Virus record (IMG/VR): IMGVR_UViG_3300020448_000620 | Coordinates: 1-21,861 of that record | Direction: 5' to 3' (one strand) | DNA from: a virus | DNA length: 21,861 nucleotides | Shown: positions 1,552-18,197 of the stretch, piece by piece | Numbering within the stretch: the stretch's first letter is position 1 | Layout: every line of letters starts with the position of its first letter | Translations under genes and position numbers: made by a program | Notes under the pieces: model-generated | Told to the model about the DNA's origin: nothing | Databases searched by the model: none | Seen by the model: only the letters and a program-made list of their open reading frames with translations

Positions 1552-2465
1552 GAACTTTAATTCTCGCTTTATTATTAACAGTAAGTGCATTTGCATTTGC
1601 AGATAATGAGATATATATCGAGCAAGTTGGAGAAGGTGTAGAAATTATTATTGAACAAACAGGTAATGGAAACTTGATTGGACAAAATACTAACACTGGT
1701 GCTAATGCGACCGATATGAAACTACAAATAGGTAACAGTAATGCATACTGGTTATTTAATGGCAGTAATAACTTATTATTTGGTGATATCAATTCAGATG
1801 GGTCAAACATAGATTACAATCTAGTAGGTTCAAATAACAGAATTAATCAATTGATTGGTACTGTAGATGGTAATACTAGTAGCAACTATAGTGCAGATGC
1901 TATTGATATGAATGTAGATGTTCAAGGTAGTTACAACCAAACTGCATTTAGATTGGGTAATAAATCTGAAACTTATAACACACCTTATAATTTAGGTGAT
2001 GGTGCATTTTTTAACAATAGTGCAGGTTTTAGAACTTACTCTGCTCATACATTTACTGGCAGTAATATCACTGGTTATGGAACTTATGGTGGTAATGCTA
2101 CAAGTAATTATGGGTCAAATGCCGCATATTGGGACGCCTGGAATATCACAGAAGGTAGTGCTGATGGTGCCAACATTGACTTACTAGTTGATGGTAGTGG
2201 TGCTTCAAATACTATTGGTGCTTTTATAAACTCTTCAAATGCTATTTGGGATTGGGACATAACTGGTTCAAACAACTGGATATTAACAACTCAAGAGGAT
2301 GGAAGTGATAATAAAATATCTGTTGATTTAACAGGTGATAAAAACTATGTGTTTGTTGGTCAAAGAACAGGTACAGGTTTAAATAGTACAGAGGCGATAT
2401 TAGATGCAAGTTTTGTTACAGACGGTTCAGAAATTACGATTATTCAACAAGATACTGGCGAGTAA
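1548..2465 (+). CDS. Curlin-like (CsgA/CsgB-type) secreted repeat protein, paralogue 1
   Basis: Probable substrate of the adjacent CsgG pore. A signal peptide (1-18, ending FAFA) is followed by a mature region that starts D-N-E-I-Y-I-E-Q-x-G-E-G. The body is rich in Asn, Gly, Ser and Thr, with imperfect beta-strand/turn units carrying G-S-N-N, G-N-x-N or Q-x-G-x-x-N turns at roughly 20-30 residue spacing (near 38-42, 61-65, 71-75, 93-97, 126-130, 240-243). This is typical of curlin repeats but more degenerate than E. coli CsgA. It is 305 aa, about twice CsgA length, and lacks cysteine. It ends in a short I-T-I-I-Q-Q strand. The ATG overlaps the csgG stop. A nucleator (CsgB-like) or non-amyloid adhesin role is equally possible. 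Confidence 0.75.
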   Translation: MRTLILALLLTVSAFAFADNEIYIEQVGEGVEIIIEQTGNGNLIGQNTNTGANATDMKLQIGNSNAYWLFNGSNNLLFGDINSDGSNIDYNLVGSNNRINQLIGTVDGNTSSNYSADAIDMNVDVQGSYNQTAFRLGNKSETYNTPYNLGDGAFFNNSAGFRTYSAHTFTGSNITGYGTYGGNATSNYGSNAAYWDAWNITEGSADGANIDLLVDGSGASNTIGAFINSSNAIWDWDITGSNNWILTTQEDGSDNKISVDLTGDKNYVFVGQRTGTGLNSTEAILDASFVTDGSEITIIQQDTGE

Positions 2466-3555
2466 TCTAATACTAATAGGGTCTGTTTATGCAGACTCTA
2501 TTGGTGATATTCGTGAACACACTGGTAGTGCCGCACTTGAAAGACAATCTGGTGAAGAACTAATTGTTTCAGATGCGAGTTTACCTGATGTAGAAATGAA
2601 TGATACTGCCGTTACTGGTAATGGTAGAATGTTAATTGAATTCAAAGATGAAGAAGAATTAGCATTAACTGAACATACAAGAATTTACATTGACGAAGTA
2701 TATTATGACCCAGACCCATCGTTATCTAAGATGACAATGCGAATGGCAATGGGTACTGCTAGATTTACTTCTGGCACAGGTGCAAGAATTGATAAAGCAA
2801 ATATCGATATCTCTACACCTACTGCTCAGATAGGTATTCGTGGTACAGATTTTACGACCACTGTTGATGAACTTGGCAGAACGTTAGTTGTATTATTGCC
2901 TGATGAAAATGGAAATTCATCTGGTGAAATAATTATTACAAATGCTGGTGGGACAATTACATTGAATGAGGCATATCAATCCATGATGTTACAATCATAT
3001 GATGTTATGCCACAAAGAACAGTTATTCTTGAAGGTATTACTCCTGATTCAATTAATAATATGTTTATTGTCAATCCACCAAAAGAAATAAAAGAAGTAG
3101 AAGCAGAAAGAGAAAGTAAAGAAGATGATGCTCAAGGTATTTTAGATGTCGATTTTTTGGCATATGATGCCTTAGAAGAAGATGCTTTAGAAGATAAAGG
3201 AGAATTAGAATATACTGAACTAGATATTGATTTACTAGATGTTGAGTTTCTTCAAGACTTATTAGACATTACTGCAGAACTTGACAGAATAAATGAGATT
3301 GATAGAGAAGTCGCAGATATAGGTAATGTTAACATTGAAGGCACTCAAGTAGGGTTTGATGATGATAGTCAGTATAGTACGTTTGTTAATAAAGAAGAAG
3401 AAACAATTGTTATGACTAGAGAAGTAGAAGGTATTATTAGAATAACTCATGCAATTTATACTAATGCAGTTATTGAAACATATACTAACCAAAAACCAAG
3501 CGAGATAACTTTAGGAGATGGTTCAGATACAAGAATCATAATAACACAAGAATGA
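2404..3555 (+). CDS. Secreted FecR-domain protein with acidic middle region
   Basis: FecR domains are periplasmic or cell-surface modules, often found beside sensors. An N-terminal signal (about 1-30, basic start then hydrophobic stretch ending VYA) leads into a FecR-type beta domain at about 60-155, with the hallmark S-T-P-T-A-Q-I-G-I-R-G-T-D-F (137-150). A strongly acidic stretch (about 226-300) follows, then a beta-rich C-terminus ending I-I-I-T-Q-E. The gene starts inside the upstream curlin gene (62-nt overlap); CAGAGG at 2389-2394 sits 9 nt before the ATG at 2404 and supports this start. Its stop overlaps the next ATG. Proteins of this kind often neighbour CHASE2 cyclases, as here (from memory). 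Ligand and partner are unknown. Confidence 0.8.
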   Translation: MQVLLQTVQKLRLFNKILASNLILIGSVYADSIGDIREHTGSAALERQSGEELIVSDASLPDVEMNDTAVTGNGRMLIEFKDEEELALTEHTRIYIDEVYYDPDPSLSKMTMRMAMGTARFTSGTGARIDKANIDISTPTAQIGIRGTDFTTTVDELGRTLVVLLPDENGNSSGEIIITNAGGTITLNEAYQSMMLQSYDVMPQRTVILEGITPDSINNMFIVNPPKEIKEVEAERESKEDDAQGILDVDFLAYDALEEDALEDKGELEYTELDIDLLDVEFLQDLLDITAELDRINEIDREVADIGNVNIEGTQVGFDDDSQYSTFVNKEEETIVMTREVEGIIRITHAIYTNAVIETYTNQKPSEITLGDGSDTRIIITQE

Positions 3556-4397
3556 TTAAATATTACATACAACGTATCAAAGAAGAAATATCGCCACAAG
3601 GACTTAAAACTATTATAACAATGTGGATTTTATTTTCGATTGGTATTGCAAGTTGTGAATATGCATATGCTGATAATGAAATATATATTACTCAAAGTGG
3701 TGAAGGTACAAAGTTGTTTATCGAACAAGAAGGTAAAGACAACAAAGTAGACTTTTCAATGCAACACCAAGGCAACGAAGTAAAAATAATCCAGCATGGA
3801 CATAATAATAAAGTAAGTTATGGGCATTGGGGTAGTTTAAGTAGTGGTGATATAGACGGTACATTTAATAATTTAGACTTTGCACAAATATGTGGTCGTG
3901 GTTCACTTTGTAAAGAATCTCACATAGGTCTTCACATTTATGGTGACGATAACAATGTTCGTTGGGGTCAAGGATATATTTTAAGTTCTTTAAATGATAC
4001 AACTTTTGCATGGGACGGAAGTGAAGGTGGTGGTCATGATGTAACTATTGATATTCATGGAGATAATAATAATCTTGCAGGTAGTCAAAGAAATTCATCT
4101 GCAGGTATCTATAGTGAACATCAAGCAACATTTTATCTTTACTCTGATAATAATAATGTATTCTGGAGACAAAATACTGATGGTGTAAAAACTGTAAATT
4201 TATACACATACAATGATGGAAACAATGTTACAGGATATCAAAGTGGTTATGCAACACATACTGCAAATATATCTTTAACTGGTTCTAGTCCAACAACATT
4301 AAATTTAAGTCAACAAGGCAATTCTGCTCAGTCTTATTCACTATCACAAAACTGCCAAACTATGGGTGGTTGTAGCATTTCTGTTGCACAACAATAA
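3552..4397 (+). CDS. Curlin-like secreted repeat protein, paralogue 2
   Basis: Second curlin-like protein (281 aa). A long N-region precedes a hydrophobic signal segment (about 21-40, ending YAYA). The mature start D-N-E-I-Y-I-T-Q-S-G-E-G closely matches paralogue 1, then the bodies diverge. Turns such as G-D-D-N-N, G-D-N-N-N, S-D-N-N-N and Q-Q-G-N-S recur between strands. The C-terminus (about 240-281) is the most curlin-like part, ending S-I-S-V-A-Q-Q. Unlike paralogue 1 it has two C-x5-C pairs (C114/C120 and C268/C274), possible disulfides in the oxidising envelope. The ATG at 3552 overlaps the preceding stop (ATGA). An internal ATG at 3621 would give a shorter signal peptide without a basic N-region, so 3552 is preferred. 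Confidence 0.75.
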   Translation: MIKYYIQRIKEEISPQGLKTIITMWILFSIGIASCEYAYADNEIYITQSGEGTKLFIEQEGKDNKVDFSMQHQGNEVKIIQHGHNNKVSYGHWGSLSSGDIDGTFNNLDFAQICGRGSLCKESHIGLHIYGDDNNVRWGQGYILSSLNDTTFAWDGSEGGGHDVTIDIHGDNNNLAGSQRNSSAGIYSEHQATFYLYSDNNNVFWRQNTDGVKTVNLYTYNDGNNVTGYQSGYATHTANISLTGSSPTTLNLSQQGNSAQSYSLSQNCQTMGGCSISVAQQ

Positions 4398-4402
4398 AGA
4401 CG

Positions 4403-6229
4403 ATGTACAATTGGAAAGTTGTTCTCATAACAATACTGTTATTAGTTGGTGTTCGTGTTGCTGACCCTAAATTAGTAGAACAGTTTCGTTTAAACTATTT
4501 TGATTCACTACAATATCTACAAACACCTGTAGACTCTGGTATTGTTCTAGTTGATATCGATGAAAAGTCTCTAGAAAAGTTTGGACAGTTTCCTTTTCCA
4601 CGTGAAGTCTATGCAAAAGAATTAAGCAAAAGTGGTCCTCTATCTTTGTACGTAATGAACATGAGTTTCACAGAAACAGACAGATTTGGTAGCGATGAAG
4701 ATTTAGCAAACACGATGATACATAGAGAAGTTATATTATCTTCTATTCCTACAAACGTATCTAATAAAGGCGACAAACCTTTTCTTGGTTTTGGTAAACT
4801 AGGTAAAGGTGACCCTAGTGACTGGTTGTACACTTATAAAGGTATTTCTACACCCATAAAAGAATTAAATCCTGTTGGTGTCGGTGTTGTAAGTGCGGCA
4901 CCAAGTGTTGATGGTATAGTTCGTGAAGCGCCATTAATGGTAATTGCAAATGGTCATATTTATCCTTCTCTCGCACTAGAAACTTTACGTGTTTGGAATC
5001 GTCAACCTAATTATGCAATGAAAGTAAAAGAAGCAGGTGTTGAATGGGTAAGAATGGGTAAACTAGATAAGATGTCCACTACACCTAACTCTAATATACA
5101 AATTGCATATTGGAATAATTTTAAACGTATCTCTTTTGGTGAACCAATGCCAGATGGACAAATGTATATCATTGGTTTATCTGCTGGTGGACTAGTAAAT
5201 CCAATACCAACGCCAATGGGTGCAATGTACCCACATGATGTTCAAGCAAACTTAATTCAAACTGTTGTAAGTGGTGTACAAATACAAAGACATTTCTTTC
5301 TTGAACAATTAGAGATACTTGTTTTGACAATGAGTATGTTATTGATACTACTTATGGTATATAGATTGCCTACGTATTTAAGTGGCATATTATCTCTTGC
5401 TATGATTGGTGGTATAATCGCAACAGGACTATATTATTGGTATACTGCTCTATTGCTTATTGATGTAGTGTACACGTCATTGGCATCGCTTCTAGTGTTC
5501 GGACATGCATCATTTAACAAGTATTACGTTACATACAAACTTAAAGAAATGATAAAAGGTCAGTTCAAAACGTATCTATCGCCAGACATGGTAGATAAAC
5601 TTGCAGAAGACCCAAGTCTATTAAAACTTGGTGGTGAGAAAAAGAACATGACATTCTTTTTTATGGACATAGTTGGGTTTACACCAATATCAGAACATTA
5701 CAAAAACAATGATGACCCCGAAGGTCTAGTGGAATTAGTTAATAACTTTTTAGATAGAACGTCTAATATCATACTACGTAATGGAGGTACAATTGATAAA
5801 TACATGGGTGATTGTATAATGGCGTTTTGGAATGCACCATTAGACAATACGTATCATGCAGAAATGGCATGTATTTCTGCAGTAGAAATAGAACAAGAAC
5901 TAGAGATAATACAAGATGAATTTAAAAGAAAAAATCTTCCTAGCATCAATGTCGGCATTGGTATTAATACTGGTGACTGCATCGTTGGCAACATGGGTTC
6001 TGTTTCCCGATTTGATTATTCAGTCATCGGAGATGCAGTTAATCTCGCCGCTCGTTTGGAAGCACTAGCGGCCAGAGGCAAATATAAAAACAATAGAATA
6101 CTTATCAGTTTAGATACTGTAAACTCTATTCGTCAATATGGATATAGTCGTAAAGATTTTTTATTTAAAAAATTAGATACAATTAAAGTAAAAGGTAAAG
6201 AAGAAAAAATAGAAATATATTCACCATGA
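4403..6229 (+). CDS. CHASE2-domain class III adenylate cyclase
   Basis: Predicted inner-membrane receptor that makes cAMP from ATP. One N-terminal membrane helix (about 5-20), an extracytoplasmic CHASE2 domain (about 30-290, with V-D-I-D-E-K-S-L near 50-57), three membrane helices (about 302-370), then a class III cyclase domain (about 412-600). Catalytic residues are intact: metal aspartates D422 (M-D-I-V-G-F-T) and D470 (Y-M-G-D), adenine-selecting K466 and D538, and transition-state N547 and R551 in N-L-A-A-R-L-E. The Lys/Asp pair argues for adenylate rather than guanylate cyclase. At 608 aa it is full length. The start lies 5 nt after the curlin stop and the end overlaps the next gene (ATGA), so it belongs to the operon. 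It is likely governed by the envelope signal sensed by CHASE2, perhaps through the FecR protein (inference). Confidence 0.93.
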   Translation: MYNWKVVLITILLLVGVRVADPKLVEQFRLNYFDSLQYLQTPVDSGIVLVDIDEKSLEKFGQFPFPREVYAKELSKSGPLSLYVMNMSFTETDRFGSDEDLANTMIHREVILSSIPTNVSNKGDKPFLGFGKLGKGDPSDWLYTYKGISTPIKELNPVGVGVVSAAPSVDGIVREAPLMVIANGHIYPSLALETLRVWNRQPNYAMKVKEAGVEWVRMGKLDKMSTTPNSNIQIAYWNNFKRISFGEPMPDGQMYIIGLSAGGLVNPIPTPMGAMYPHDVQANLIQTVVSGVQIQRHFFLEQLEILVLTMSMLLILLMVYRLPTYLSGILSLAMIGGIIATGLYYWYTALLLIDVVYTSLASLLVFGHASFNKYYVTYKLKEMIKGQFKTYLSPDMVDKLAEDPSLLKLGGEKKNMTFFFMDIVGFTPISEHYKNNDDPEGLVELVNNFLDRTSNIILRNGGTIDKYMGDCIMAFWNAPLDNTYHAEMACISAVEIEQELEIIQDEFKRKNLPSINVGIGINTGDCIVGNMGSVSRFDYSVIGDAVNLAARLEALAARGKYKNNRILISLDTVNSIRQYGYSRKDFLFKKLDTIKVKGKEEKIEIYSP

Positions 6230-6435
6230 AAGATTTTTTAAATTCAGTTCGTATGCCATATCAAGATGCGATTGTATTTGCGACTAGACTATATGATTTT
6301 CATATTGAACAGTCTATGAAAGATTTAAAAAATAAAGACTTTCATATAAAACAAGCACATAGAATGAAAGATTGGATAACTGATATGAAAGAGTTTATCG
6401 TTTCAAATGAGTCTTGTCATGAACGTGAAGCATAA
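6226..6435 (+). CDS. Small hypothetical protein, last gene of the curli-like operon
   Basis: Not recognised. The 69 residues are helical and charged, rich in Lys, Asp, Met and His, with no signal peptide or membrane segment, so probably cytoplasmic. The ATG overlaps the cyclase stop (ATGA), the same coupling used throughout the operon, which supports it being real. Its last 41 nt overlap the end of the convergent gene on the other strand. Confidence 0.55.
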   Translation: MKDFLNSVRMPYQDAIVFATRLYDFHIEQSMKDLKNKDFHIKQAHRMKDWITDMKEFIVSNESCHEREA

Positions 6436-11514: not shown

Positions 11515-12369
11515 TTATTTATCCTCAAAATTTATGTTGTTAGATTTCTCTCGTTCATCGAGTTCATACTCTTCTCGCATTTTGTTGTTTATTTTAACAG
11601 ACTCGGCAATCAAAGTCAAGTCTTCATCAAACTTAGTAAATGCATTCATGTCTTTTGGTAAACATGCACCACCAAACCCACGTTTGCCATCATACCCAGG
11701 GACTCTAGAATGAGCAAAACCTATTCTACCATCACTACAGATACCATTAATTATTCTTTGAGCATTCAAACTCTGTTTTTTTGCACTATCATGTATTTGA
11801 TTCATGAATGTAACTTTCAAACCAAGAAAACTGTTGACTCCATATTTTACCATTGCCGCTTCTTGTGGTGTCATACTAATCCAAGAAAGATTAATACATA
11901 AACTAAATGTACTATAAAAAGTTATAATTCTTTGGCAAGATTCTTCTGTTGGACCACCAATAATTCTCATTCTAGAATTTATAAATTGTTCTTTTGCATT
12001 ATTTTCTGTTAAAAATTCTGGATTGTGTGTAATTCTAGGTTTATCGTCATCGTGTACTGAATTATATAATCTAGTTAGAATATCTGGCGTTACTGTTGAT
12101 TTGATAACAATAAGTGCATCTGTATGTTGGATAAGTTTTAATACTGCATCTTCAACGATGGCACCATCAACTGTTCCATTATCAGACATTGGTGTTGGCG
12201 CACATACAAACACACATGTTGGATTCCATTTACATAAATCGTCTATGTTTGTTTCTAGTTTTGGGTCTACATAAAACTTTTCTAAGTCATCATTAGTAAA
12301 TGCATAATCAATTGCTTGACCTACAAATCCATAACCGACAATTCCTAATTTAAATTTACTTTTTGCCAT
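11515..12369 (-). CDS. UDP-glucose/nucleotide-sugar 6-dehydrogenase-like protein, short form
   Basis: The family oxidises UDP-glucose (or GDP-mannose) to the uronic acid with two NAD+. The Rossmann loop G-x-G-x-x-G is at 12-17, N-P-E-F-L at 116-120, the catalytic Lys/Asn in V-K-Y-G-V-N (K175, N179), and the catalytic Cys in G-F-G-G-A-C-L-P-K-D (C236). All key residues of the first two domains are present. The protein stops at 284 aa, whereas typical members are about 390-450 aa, so the C-terminal sugar-nucleotide-binding Rossmann domain is missing. Its end abuts uvsX cleanly, so this is not an obvious frameshift. It sits one base from the epimerase gene, implying successive pathway steps. Confidence 0.85.
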   Translation of the reverse strand: MAKSKFKLGIVGYGFVGQAIDYAFTNDDLEKFYVDPKLETNIDDLCKWNPTCVFVCAPTPMSDNGTVDGAIVEDAVLKLIQHTDALIVIKSTVTPDILTRLYNSVHDDDKPRITHNPEFLTENNAKEQFINSRMRIIGGPTEESCQRIITFYSTFSLCINLSWISMTPQEAAMVKYGVNSFLGLKVTFMNQIHDSAKKQSLNAQRIINGICSDGRIGFAHSRVPGYDGKRGFGGACLPKDMNAFTKFDEDLTLIAESVKINNKMREEYELDEREKSNNINFEDK

Positions 12370-13337
12370 TAATTAACCTCATGATAATCTTTATACCAAC
12401 TTACAAATTCTGCTACACCTTCTTCAATGTCAACTACAGGTTGATATCCAATCTTTTCAATCTTAGATGTATTACTCCAAGTTTCAAGTACGTCTGCGGG
12501 ATGTGGTGGTGTTTTTATAATATCTGGTTCTCTATTTAATTCAATTCCTATTCTATTTATAAAATGTATTAGGTCGACTTGTTTGCCTCTACCGATATTA
12601 AAGATTTCATCTGAACGTATGTCTTGATTAAAAATACATAATTTAATACCAGCAATAATATCAGATATATACGTAAAGTCTCTTTTCATTAGACCCCAAT
12701 TAAATGCCCTAACAGGATTACCAGCAACAATATCTTTTGTCATATCGTACAATGCCATGTCGGGTCTACCCCATGGTCCATATACTGTAAAAAATCTTAG
12801 ACCTATATTATGTAGACCAGACATTTTAAACTGACACTCATTTACATACTTAGTGTATGCATATGGATTCTTTTGATGTGGTTGAACTATTTCTTCTGTC
12901 CATGGTAATGTTTTTGTGCCACTATAGACAGATGATGTTGATGCATAAATTACTTTGGTGACGTTATGTAACTTACATACGTTAATTAAATTTTGTGTGC
13001 CATCTATGTTATCTCTATGATATAAGTGTTCATTACCAACACTTTGGCGAACTCCAGCACGTGCCGCCAAATGCACAACAATATCAGGTTCATAATCCGC
13101 AAAAAGATAATCTAGTTTTTCAAAATCATTTAAATCACAATTTCTTATTTCTAATCCAAACTCTTCGCATCTATCTTGTTTTAATTGTGGGTCATAGTAA
13201 TTATTAAAGTTATCAATACCAACACAATATAAATCATATTCTTCTGTTAACAAAGAATGCATTAAATGACTACCAATAAACCCTGCGCCACCCGTAACTA
13301 ATATTTTCACAACTTTAGTTTCTGTTTCTGTAGACAT
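12369..13337 (-). CDS. NAD-dependent epimerase, probably UDP-glucuronate 4-epimerase
   Basis: Extended-SDR sugar-nucleotide epimerase, 322 aa. T-G-G-A-G-F-I-G (15-22) binds NAD; S135 and Y159-x-x-x-K163 are catalytic. The segment G-L-R-F-F-T-V-Y-G-P-W-G-R-P-D-M-A (179-195) and A-A-R-A-G-V-R-Q-S (91-99) are diagnostic of the CapI/GAE type that converts UDP-glucuronate to UDP-galacturonate. With the adjacent dehydrogenase this gives a two-step route from UDP-glucose, presumably to change cell-surface or phage-coupled glycans. The start overlaps the primase-like gene by 23 nt; a GTG at 13307, just before K-I-L-V-T-G-G, would also fit the family's usual N-terminus. Confidence 0.88.
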   Translation of the reverse strand: MSTETETKVVKILVTGGAGFIGSHLMHSLLTEEYDLYCVGIDNFNNYYDPQLKQDRCEEFGLEIRNCDLNDFEKLDYLFADYEPDIVVHLAARAGVRQSVGNEHLYHRDNIDGTQNLINVCKLHNVTKVIYASTSSVYSGTKTLPWTEEIVQPHQKNPYAYTKYVNECQFKMSGLHNIGLRFFTVYGPWGRPDMALYDMTKDIVAGNPVRAFNWGLMKRDFTYISDIIAGIKLCIFNQDIRSDEIFNIGRGKQVDLIHFINRIGIELNREPDIIKTPPHPADVLETWSNTSKIEKIGYQPVVDIEEGVAEFVSWYKDYHEVN

Positions 13338-17786: not shown

Positions 17787-18197
17787 TTATTTAATTTTAA
17801 TAGTTTTAGGTTTTTTCTCTTCGGGTATATTTTTTATCAATTCAATTGATAATATACCATCATCAAGTTCAGCAGATTTTACTTCGACAAACTCTGCAAG
17901 TGCAAAAGTTTTTACAAAGTCTTTTGTTGAAATACCTTTGTGTATTATTTCAGCAAATTTATCTTCTGACTTAGCGATAACAGATATCTTAAGTGAAGAA
18001 TCTTCTACTTCGATGTTGATATCCTTCTTTTGAAAACCTGCGACTGCAAGTTCAACAAAATAACTTTCGCCTTTCTTGACGATGTTATATGGAGGATAGT
18101 TTGATTGAGGAACCGATACTCTTTGTAAAGTATCAAAGATAGAATCGAATCCCACCGAGAATGGTCTGAATTGACCAAATGCTTCTATTTGTGTCAT
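17787..18197 (-). CDS. hsp20: Small heat-shock protein (Hsp20/alpha-crystallin)
   Basis: ATP-independent holdase chaperone of the IbpA type, 136 aa, a common accessory gene of marine T4-like phages. N-terminal R-P-F-S-V-G-F-D-S-I-F-D (11-22), an alpha-crystallin domain at about 34-121 with V-E-L-A-V-A-G-F (48-55) and the signature A-E-L-D-D-G-I-L-S-I-E-L (109-120), and a C-terminal I-K-I anchor used for oligomer assembly. AGGAG lies about 6 nt before the ATG. It is a single-gene transcript bounded by a strong terminator. It probably protects phage or host proteins during infection. Confidence 0.93.
   Translation of the reverse strand: MTQIEAFGQFRPFSVGFDSIFDTLQRVSVPQSNYPPYNIVKKGESYFVELAVAGFQKKDINIEVEDSSLKISVIAKSEDKFAEIIHKGISTKDFVKTFALAEFVEVKSAELDDGILSIELIKNIPEEKKPKTIKIK

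Follow-up and report, generated by a model that had tools for sequence, protein, structure and literature searches.

A predicted CHASE2 adenylyl cyclase and its FecR-domain neighbour in the curli module of a T4-like phage

Adenylate cyclases have been reported in phages before, in the setting of curli genes. The available part of Wittmers et al. 2022 (PMC9599517) describes an adenylate cyclase and FecR in the curli clusters of podo- and myo-pelagiphages, reports that they are widely distributed, and documents curli-gene expression in metatranscriptomes. Regulation is suggested there by analogy with cAMP-CsgD and FecR is taken as an iron regulator; that part of the text makes no mention of the CHASE2 domain or of FecR being paired with it. 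Annotated cyclases occupy the equivalent place in HTVC008M (KC465899; AGE60353.1) and in four Melnitz isolates (for Melnitz, MZ577097; QZI94833.1). Curli genes are also taken up by Zaragoza-Solas 2020 (PMC7029224) and by the Melnitz paper (PMC9004378), which leave the cyclase out of their discussion. The Melnitz paper states that csgA and csgB are absent, yet the Melnitz annotation lists two curlin-associated repeat proteins. In bacteria, the gene clusters of Campylobacterota CHASE2 cyclases include a FecR-domain outer-membrane protein (PMC9239204), the CHASE2 cyclases of S. meliloti respond to a protein signal sensed via an outer-membrane barrel (PMC13001267), and a CHASE2 kinase occurs with a LysM-FecR protein in a Burkholderia biofilm operon (PMC5192318).

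The preliminary description of the locus analyzed here held that a receptor-type adenylate cyclase had no described role in T4-like phages. This claim of novelty fails because of the HTVC008M and Melnitz homologues and because the available part of Wittmers et al. 2022 (PMC9599517) already reports such cyclases. The enzyme class is already known in phages, and what we add is a link between FecR, CHASE2 and secretion, together with the puzzle of a missing receptor. Curli modules occur in phages that rank among the most widespread in the ocean.

A CHASE2 cyclase in a phage curli operon

The source record, from a marine phage, is a linear fragment of 21.9 kb, and its whole 21,861 nucleotides are referred to here as the window. 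The curli operon lies at its start on the plus strand, and the rest of the window carries T4-like replication genes (gp43 DNA polymerase, UvsX, DnaB-like helicase and clamp loader), which bears out the T4-like phage setting proposed earlier. The backbone is nearest to Phage C48C1, whose record gives no host (DNA polymerase 59% and UvsX 75% identical), and not to HTVC008M. Phage C48C1 also shares the gene order of the Hsp20, UDP-glucose dehydrogenase and nucleotide-sugar epimerase homologues of the window (17787-18197, 11515-13337).

Genes in the operon follow the order csgF-csgG-curlin-fecR-curlin-cyclase, and a 69-aa ORF comes next. CsgF (212-679; PF10614, E 7e-10) and the outer-membrane curli pore CsgG (679-1551; PF03783, E 5e-46) were identified by Pfam. 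The two curlin-like repeat proteins (1548-2465 and 3552-4397) had no Pfam match and were assigned only by their repeat pattern and by homology to annotated phage curlins, which for the first are those of HTVC008M and Melnitz (position and profile); the C-terminal hxhxQ pattern discussed below, carried by the first, is further evidence for both. Together these components correspond to a curli (type VIII) secretion system. Directly 5′ of csgF is a small single-TM/coiled-coil protein (1-252), a homologue of which stands there in 65 of 72 csgF-bearing loci. It carries the motif LIxLIDRIRMLDNDLIRLQQK and may be the "histidine kinase" that the literature places ahead of phage csgF, though it is far too short for one. 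Upstream of the operon, neither sigma-70 promoters nor the T4 late promoter motif TATAAATA turned up above chance when scanned for.

The cyclase ORF (4403-6229; 608 aa) is intact and falls into phrog_35576, annotated there as of unknown function. Pfam matches far above the cut-off were obtained for a periplasmic CHASE2 sensor domain at aa 10-315 (4430-5347; PF05226, E 1.1e-28), which the model also contains, and for a class III catalytic domain at aa 413-605 (5639-6217; Guanylate_cyc, E 3.3e-20). Hydropathy and the secondary structure of the model place three transmembrane helices at aa 300-389 (5300-5569), the last continuing into the cyclase. The predicted structure (mean pLDDT 87.6) comprises an N-terminal helix, a periplasmic alpha/beta domain, transmembrane helices at 300-321, 324-349 and 356-389, and the cyclase domain; an N-terminal transmembrane segment, a periplasmic CHASE2 domain, three further transmembrane helices and a cytoplasmic output domain are the layout of a CHASE2 receptor cyclase. 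The modelled cyclase domain superposes on CyaB and CyaC with TM-scores of 0.81-0.86 (normalised to the target), and the fold matches listed for the model are cyclase structures, with no solved relative of the CHASE2 domain prominent among them. Because the intact ORF, the Pfam matches and the model topology agree, the earlier claim of a complete CHASE2-3TM-class III cyclase stands.

The accompanying list of active-site residues was correct for D422, K466, D470, N547 and R551. Its adenine-selecting residue, D538, is rejected: alignment on P. aeruginosa CyaB places S540 in the column of the base-selecting Thr (RFDYSVIGDAVN / RMDYTIIGREVN). The K466/S540 pair is therefore a class IIIb-like adenylyl signature and differs from that of the guanylyl cyclase Cya2, which has E and G at the two columns; bacterial relatives retain K with S or T there. 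Judged from its residues, namely two metal Asp, Lys with Ser, Asn and Arg, the enzyme is predicted to be a class III nucleotidyl cyclase of the adenylyl type, and we infer cAMP as its product. A functional membrane-bound class III adenylyl cyclase is one part of the explanation preferred below, to which as a whole we give an even chance. The HTVC008M cyclase keeps the full set of catalytic residues. The Melnitz cyclase (L035, 8935-10986) has D at position 540, S in place of the transition-state Asn (N547S) and a C-terminal extension, and may be changed in activity.

Conservation and gene neighbourhood

The search for CHASE2 cyclases in other phage genomes that the preliminary description suggested recovered homologues at more than 100 viral loci. 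Conservation was assessed on 89 distinct viral sequences and 80 relatives from bacteria, the denominators being the viral sequences with a letter at the position. Among these, D422 is found in 85/86 (Y in L081), S540 in 85/86 (D in Melnitz), N547 in 83/84 (S in Melnitz) and R551 in 84/84; K466 and D470 are each present in 86/86, a figure that is partly ascertained because both, unlike the other residues, fall within the search motifs. Median pairwise dN/dS was 0.05-0.15 in the CHASE2 and cyclase domains alike. These near-invariant catalytic residues and the low dN/dS indicate that the enzyme is maintained. With the ORF intact as well, we rejected the reading of the gene as a degenerate remnant. 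In a tree with 50 sampled bacterial cyclases, all those from viruses group together as a single clade (SH-aLRT 100). In the cyclase-bearing records labelled "Acinetobacter phage MD-2021a", the match to the window is limited to the catalytic domain.

Every cyclase-seeded viral locus of adequate length has the order csgF-csgG-curlin-fecR-(curlin)-cyclase. When CsgG was the seed instead, so that no bias towards the cyclase entered, FecR was found in 48/48 and the cyclase in 31/33 of the loci with sufficient downstream sequence. The 69-aa ORF (6226-6435), predicted to be helical, accompanies the cyclase on either side of it, as seen over 26 cyclase-seeded loci, and the cyclase is also present in 11 of the 12 CsgG-seeded loci that have the ORF; it is possibly a small regulator or reader.

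The FecR-domain protein (2404-3555; PF04773, E 3.7e-9) begins with a signal-peptide-like segment and continues with an N-domain (aa 31-210), a linker modelled as disordered and, at the C-terminus, a small beta domain ending in hxhxQ. Confidence in its model is moderate (pLDDT 69). The N-terminal part shares its fold with the PupR cell-surface signalling domain and, across 64 columns with a TM-score of 0.73 (normalised to the target), with the "cell surface anchoring domain" 5ix9. The hxhxQ end was found in 70/70 distinct phage FecR proteins and 82/128 curlins, against 0/66 CsgG, 0/61 CsgF, 0/79 cyclases and a background of 17/1668 other ORFs. This common end suggests, short of proof, that FecR docks on the curli fibre or travels with it.

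Bacterial relatives offer a comparison outside phages. The 80 nearest, mostly from alphaproteobacteria, are 31-36% identical to the window cyclase, and 72 of them have at least 1.2 kb of upstream sequence. FecR lies directly upstream in 25/72 and the type I secretion protein HlyD in 16/72 (union 41/72), leaving 31/72 with neither; where full flanks are available, FecR or HlyD is present in 33/42 loci. The bacterial FecR proteins examined are large VCBS/RTX/Bap-like adhesins, several of them of the Bap/LapA-like or RTX kind; their matches to the LapA retention module are weak and fall below threshold. Profiles built from the phage csgF, csgG and curlin genes matched nothing within 10 kb of the cyclase in any of the 80 loci. 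Our reading of these neighbourhoods is that exported surface proteins bearing FecR repeatedly have a CHASE2 cyclase as partner, with curli probably replacing type I secretion as the exporter in phages. Because the nearest bacterial cyclases so often adjoin genes for FecR-domain giant adhesins or type I secretion, the phage FecR is more likely an envelope partner of the cyclase than an iron regulator.

At six bacterial loci, the cyclase-adjacent HlyD has an N-terminal cNMP-binding domain (two by Pfam, four by similarity), making it a possible cAMP-gated exporter. These fusions (L115, L116, L122-L124 and L127) stand directly upstream of the CHASE2 cyclase, and further cNMP-binding-like ORFs lie downstream.

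A cyclase-less relative of the window phage (L246) serves as a natural experiment. Its DnaB and UvsX are 98% and 97% identical to those of the window, but its second curlin abuts a DUF3310 gene, with a clean absence of both the cyclase and the 69-aa ORF. Its curlins are 79-80% and its CsgG 73% identical to the window, and its FecR N-domain only 51%, compared with about 70% predicted from 114 cyclase-bearing loci (z -4.6). The prediction comes from a regression of FecR N-domain identity on CsgG identity (slope 0.96, residual SD 0.041, the latter slightly optimistic because some contigs contribute two of the 114 rows). Across the cyclase-less clade, the FecR N-domain falls 4.3-4.9 SD below the regression line, whereas the C-domain, at 54-55% identity, is not below that of cyclase-bearing phages at similar distance. 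In addition, the 90 cyclase-associated FecRs all have G124 and P139, and the 8 cyclase-less ones all have Ser in these places. This pattern fits the loss of a FecR-CHASE2 interface; the fetched cyclase-less contigs form one clade, so the absence counts as a single evolutionary event, and an unrelated recombination that swapped the FecR N-domain would give an identical pattern.

These comparisons bear on whether the cyclase belongs functionally to the curli module or is a general-purpose enzyme (an ATP drain, a mimic of a host stress signal or a means of interfering with nucleotide-based defence) whose neighbourhood is an operon accident. The cyclase and the 69-aa ORF do behave as a removable cassette, and a signalling role is less obvious in hosts without a cAMP receptor. 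However, csgG-fecR linkage is near-universal (31/33), constraint on the CHASE2 sensor is as strong as on the catalytic domain, and the FecR N-domain diverges where the cyclase is missing; we therefore argue for a module-specific role and regard a general-purpose enzyme as unlikely.

Candidate readers of cAMP

We then considered which proteins could respond to cAMP in an infected cell. SAR11 genomes were picked with four 16S FISH probes, whose sequences we take to be those of the SAR11 probes; all four match perfectly in two genomes (G330 and G241). Across 58 SAR11-order genomes we detected no class III cyclase and no HTH_Crp domain over the cut-off, with weak partial HTH_Crp matches in seven, and the only cNMP-binding matches were four weak ones in an 870-aa acyltransferase-like protein. 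Applied to another marine alphaproteobacterial order with similarly small genomes, the identical search detected cNMP-binding domains in 32/32. No cNMP-binding domain was detected in 23 related phage records, which include the complete genomes of HTVC008M and Melnitz. A CRP-type receptor was thus found neither in the SAR11-order genomes nor in these phage records.

Under the regulation suggested by Wittmers et al. 2022, phage cAMP would work on curli genes via a CRP-type regulator and FecR would be iron-responsive. It draws on the control of csgD by cAMP-CRP in enterobacteria, as given in the available part of that paper (PMC9599517), and the cNMP-binding proteins of the other marine order are in its favour, as the host of the window phage may lie outside SAR11. 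HTVC008M was isolated on Pelagibacter and has a complete active site; since neither the SAR11-order genomes nor the related phages offered a receptor, the cAMP-CRP model lacks one at least for the SAR11-infecting members, an argument that may not apply to the window phage because the nearest record, Phage C48C1, gives no host. The phage FecR also begins with a signal peptide and has no cytoplasmic anti-sigma part, and no sigma factor adjoins it, unlike in FecI-FecR systems. Taking both sides together, we consider CRP-mediated control quite unlikely. A different product, such as cGMP or the kind of pyrimidine cyclic nucleotide used in Pycsar, with a receptor of unrecognised type would account for the lack of a cAMP receptor in the SAR11-order genomes and phage records, but we find it very improbable given a K466/S540 pair that fits adenylyl cyclases, differs from the E/G of Cya2 and is kept as K with S or T in bacterial relatives.

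A possible export sensor and its known counterparts

The explanation that we prefer, at the even chance stated above, is that the cyclase and a secreted FecR form a secretion-coupled sensor unit that reports the state of the pore or fibre in the phage curli module. Phages would have acquired this unit within the curli (type VIII secretion) module. FecR would be exported to the periplasm, where its N-domain, kin to envelope-signalling and anchoring domains, would contact CHASE2, while its curlin-like C-terminal strand would engage the CsgG/F pore or a curlin fibre under assembly. Through CHASE2 and the three transmembrane helices, the state of pore or fibre would then reach a homodimeric cyclase, which would make cAMP within the infected cell. 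We infer both the FecR-CHASE2 contact and the sensing of fibre or pore from the comparisons above. Counting against this sensor unit are the 31/72 bacterial loci with neither FecR nor HlyD directly upstream, the lack of a recognised receptor where the host is SAR11, and the retention of the module in Melnitz despite N547S in its cyclase. The earlier proposal that phage-made cAMP sets the timing of the curli-like output can be reconciled with the evidence, although our data favour sensing of the fibre or export state over transcriptional timing. Its companion idea, that cAMP might reprogram host physiology, would lack a canonical receptor in a SAR11-like host.

A wider version, which we put forward tentatively and rate as less probable, is that the phage monitors its own export machine through FecR with a second messenger, that a non-CRP receptor reads the cAMP in hosts from an order with no cAMP system of its own, and that the same principle operates in alphaproteobacterial type I secretion. 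If true, a FecR-bearing exported adhesin, its exporter and a CHASE2 cyclase would constitute a common principle, with the exporter subunit itself predicted to bind cNMP at the six alphaproteobacterial loci. Apart from this wider version, our comparisons recast FecR, a supposed iron regulator, as probably the partner through which the cyclase senses, and tie both to surface-protein export in bacteria as well. What stands out as a sharp puzzle is that the known SAR11 hosts apparently have no receptor for the cyclase product.

Among described systems, FecI-FecR-FecA cell-surface signalling shares the FecR domain, and the window FecR model matches the PupR signalling domain; the phage protein differs in being predicted to be secreted, without an anti-sigma domain and without a FecI or FecA partner in the module. 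The Burkholderia operon (PMC5192318) likewise pairs a periplasmic FecR-domain protein with a CHASE2 sensor and regulates biofilm, but its output is a kinase and response regulator where the phage has a cyclase. Alike in domain order, in FecR or outer-membrane partners and in coupling envelope sensing to cAMP are S. meliloti CyaD1, CyaD2 and CyaK and the CHASE2 cyclases of Campylobacterota (PMC13001267, PMC9239204). Bacterial enzymes of this kind signal to CRP-type regulators such as Clr, and the 80 bacterial loci gave no match to the phage curli profiles within 10 kb. The cyclases of the pelagiphage curli clusters are homologous and share the synteny: the window gene, 42% identical to that of HTVC008M and 34% to that of Melnitz, stands likewise behind csgF-csgG-curlin-fecR-curlin, in a backbone that is nearest to Phage C48C1 rather than to HTVC008M.
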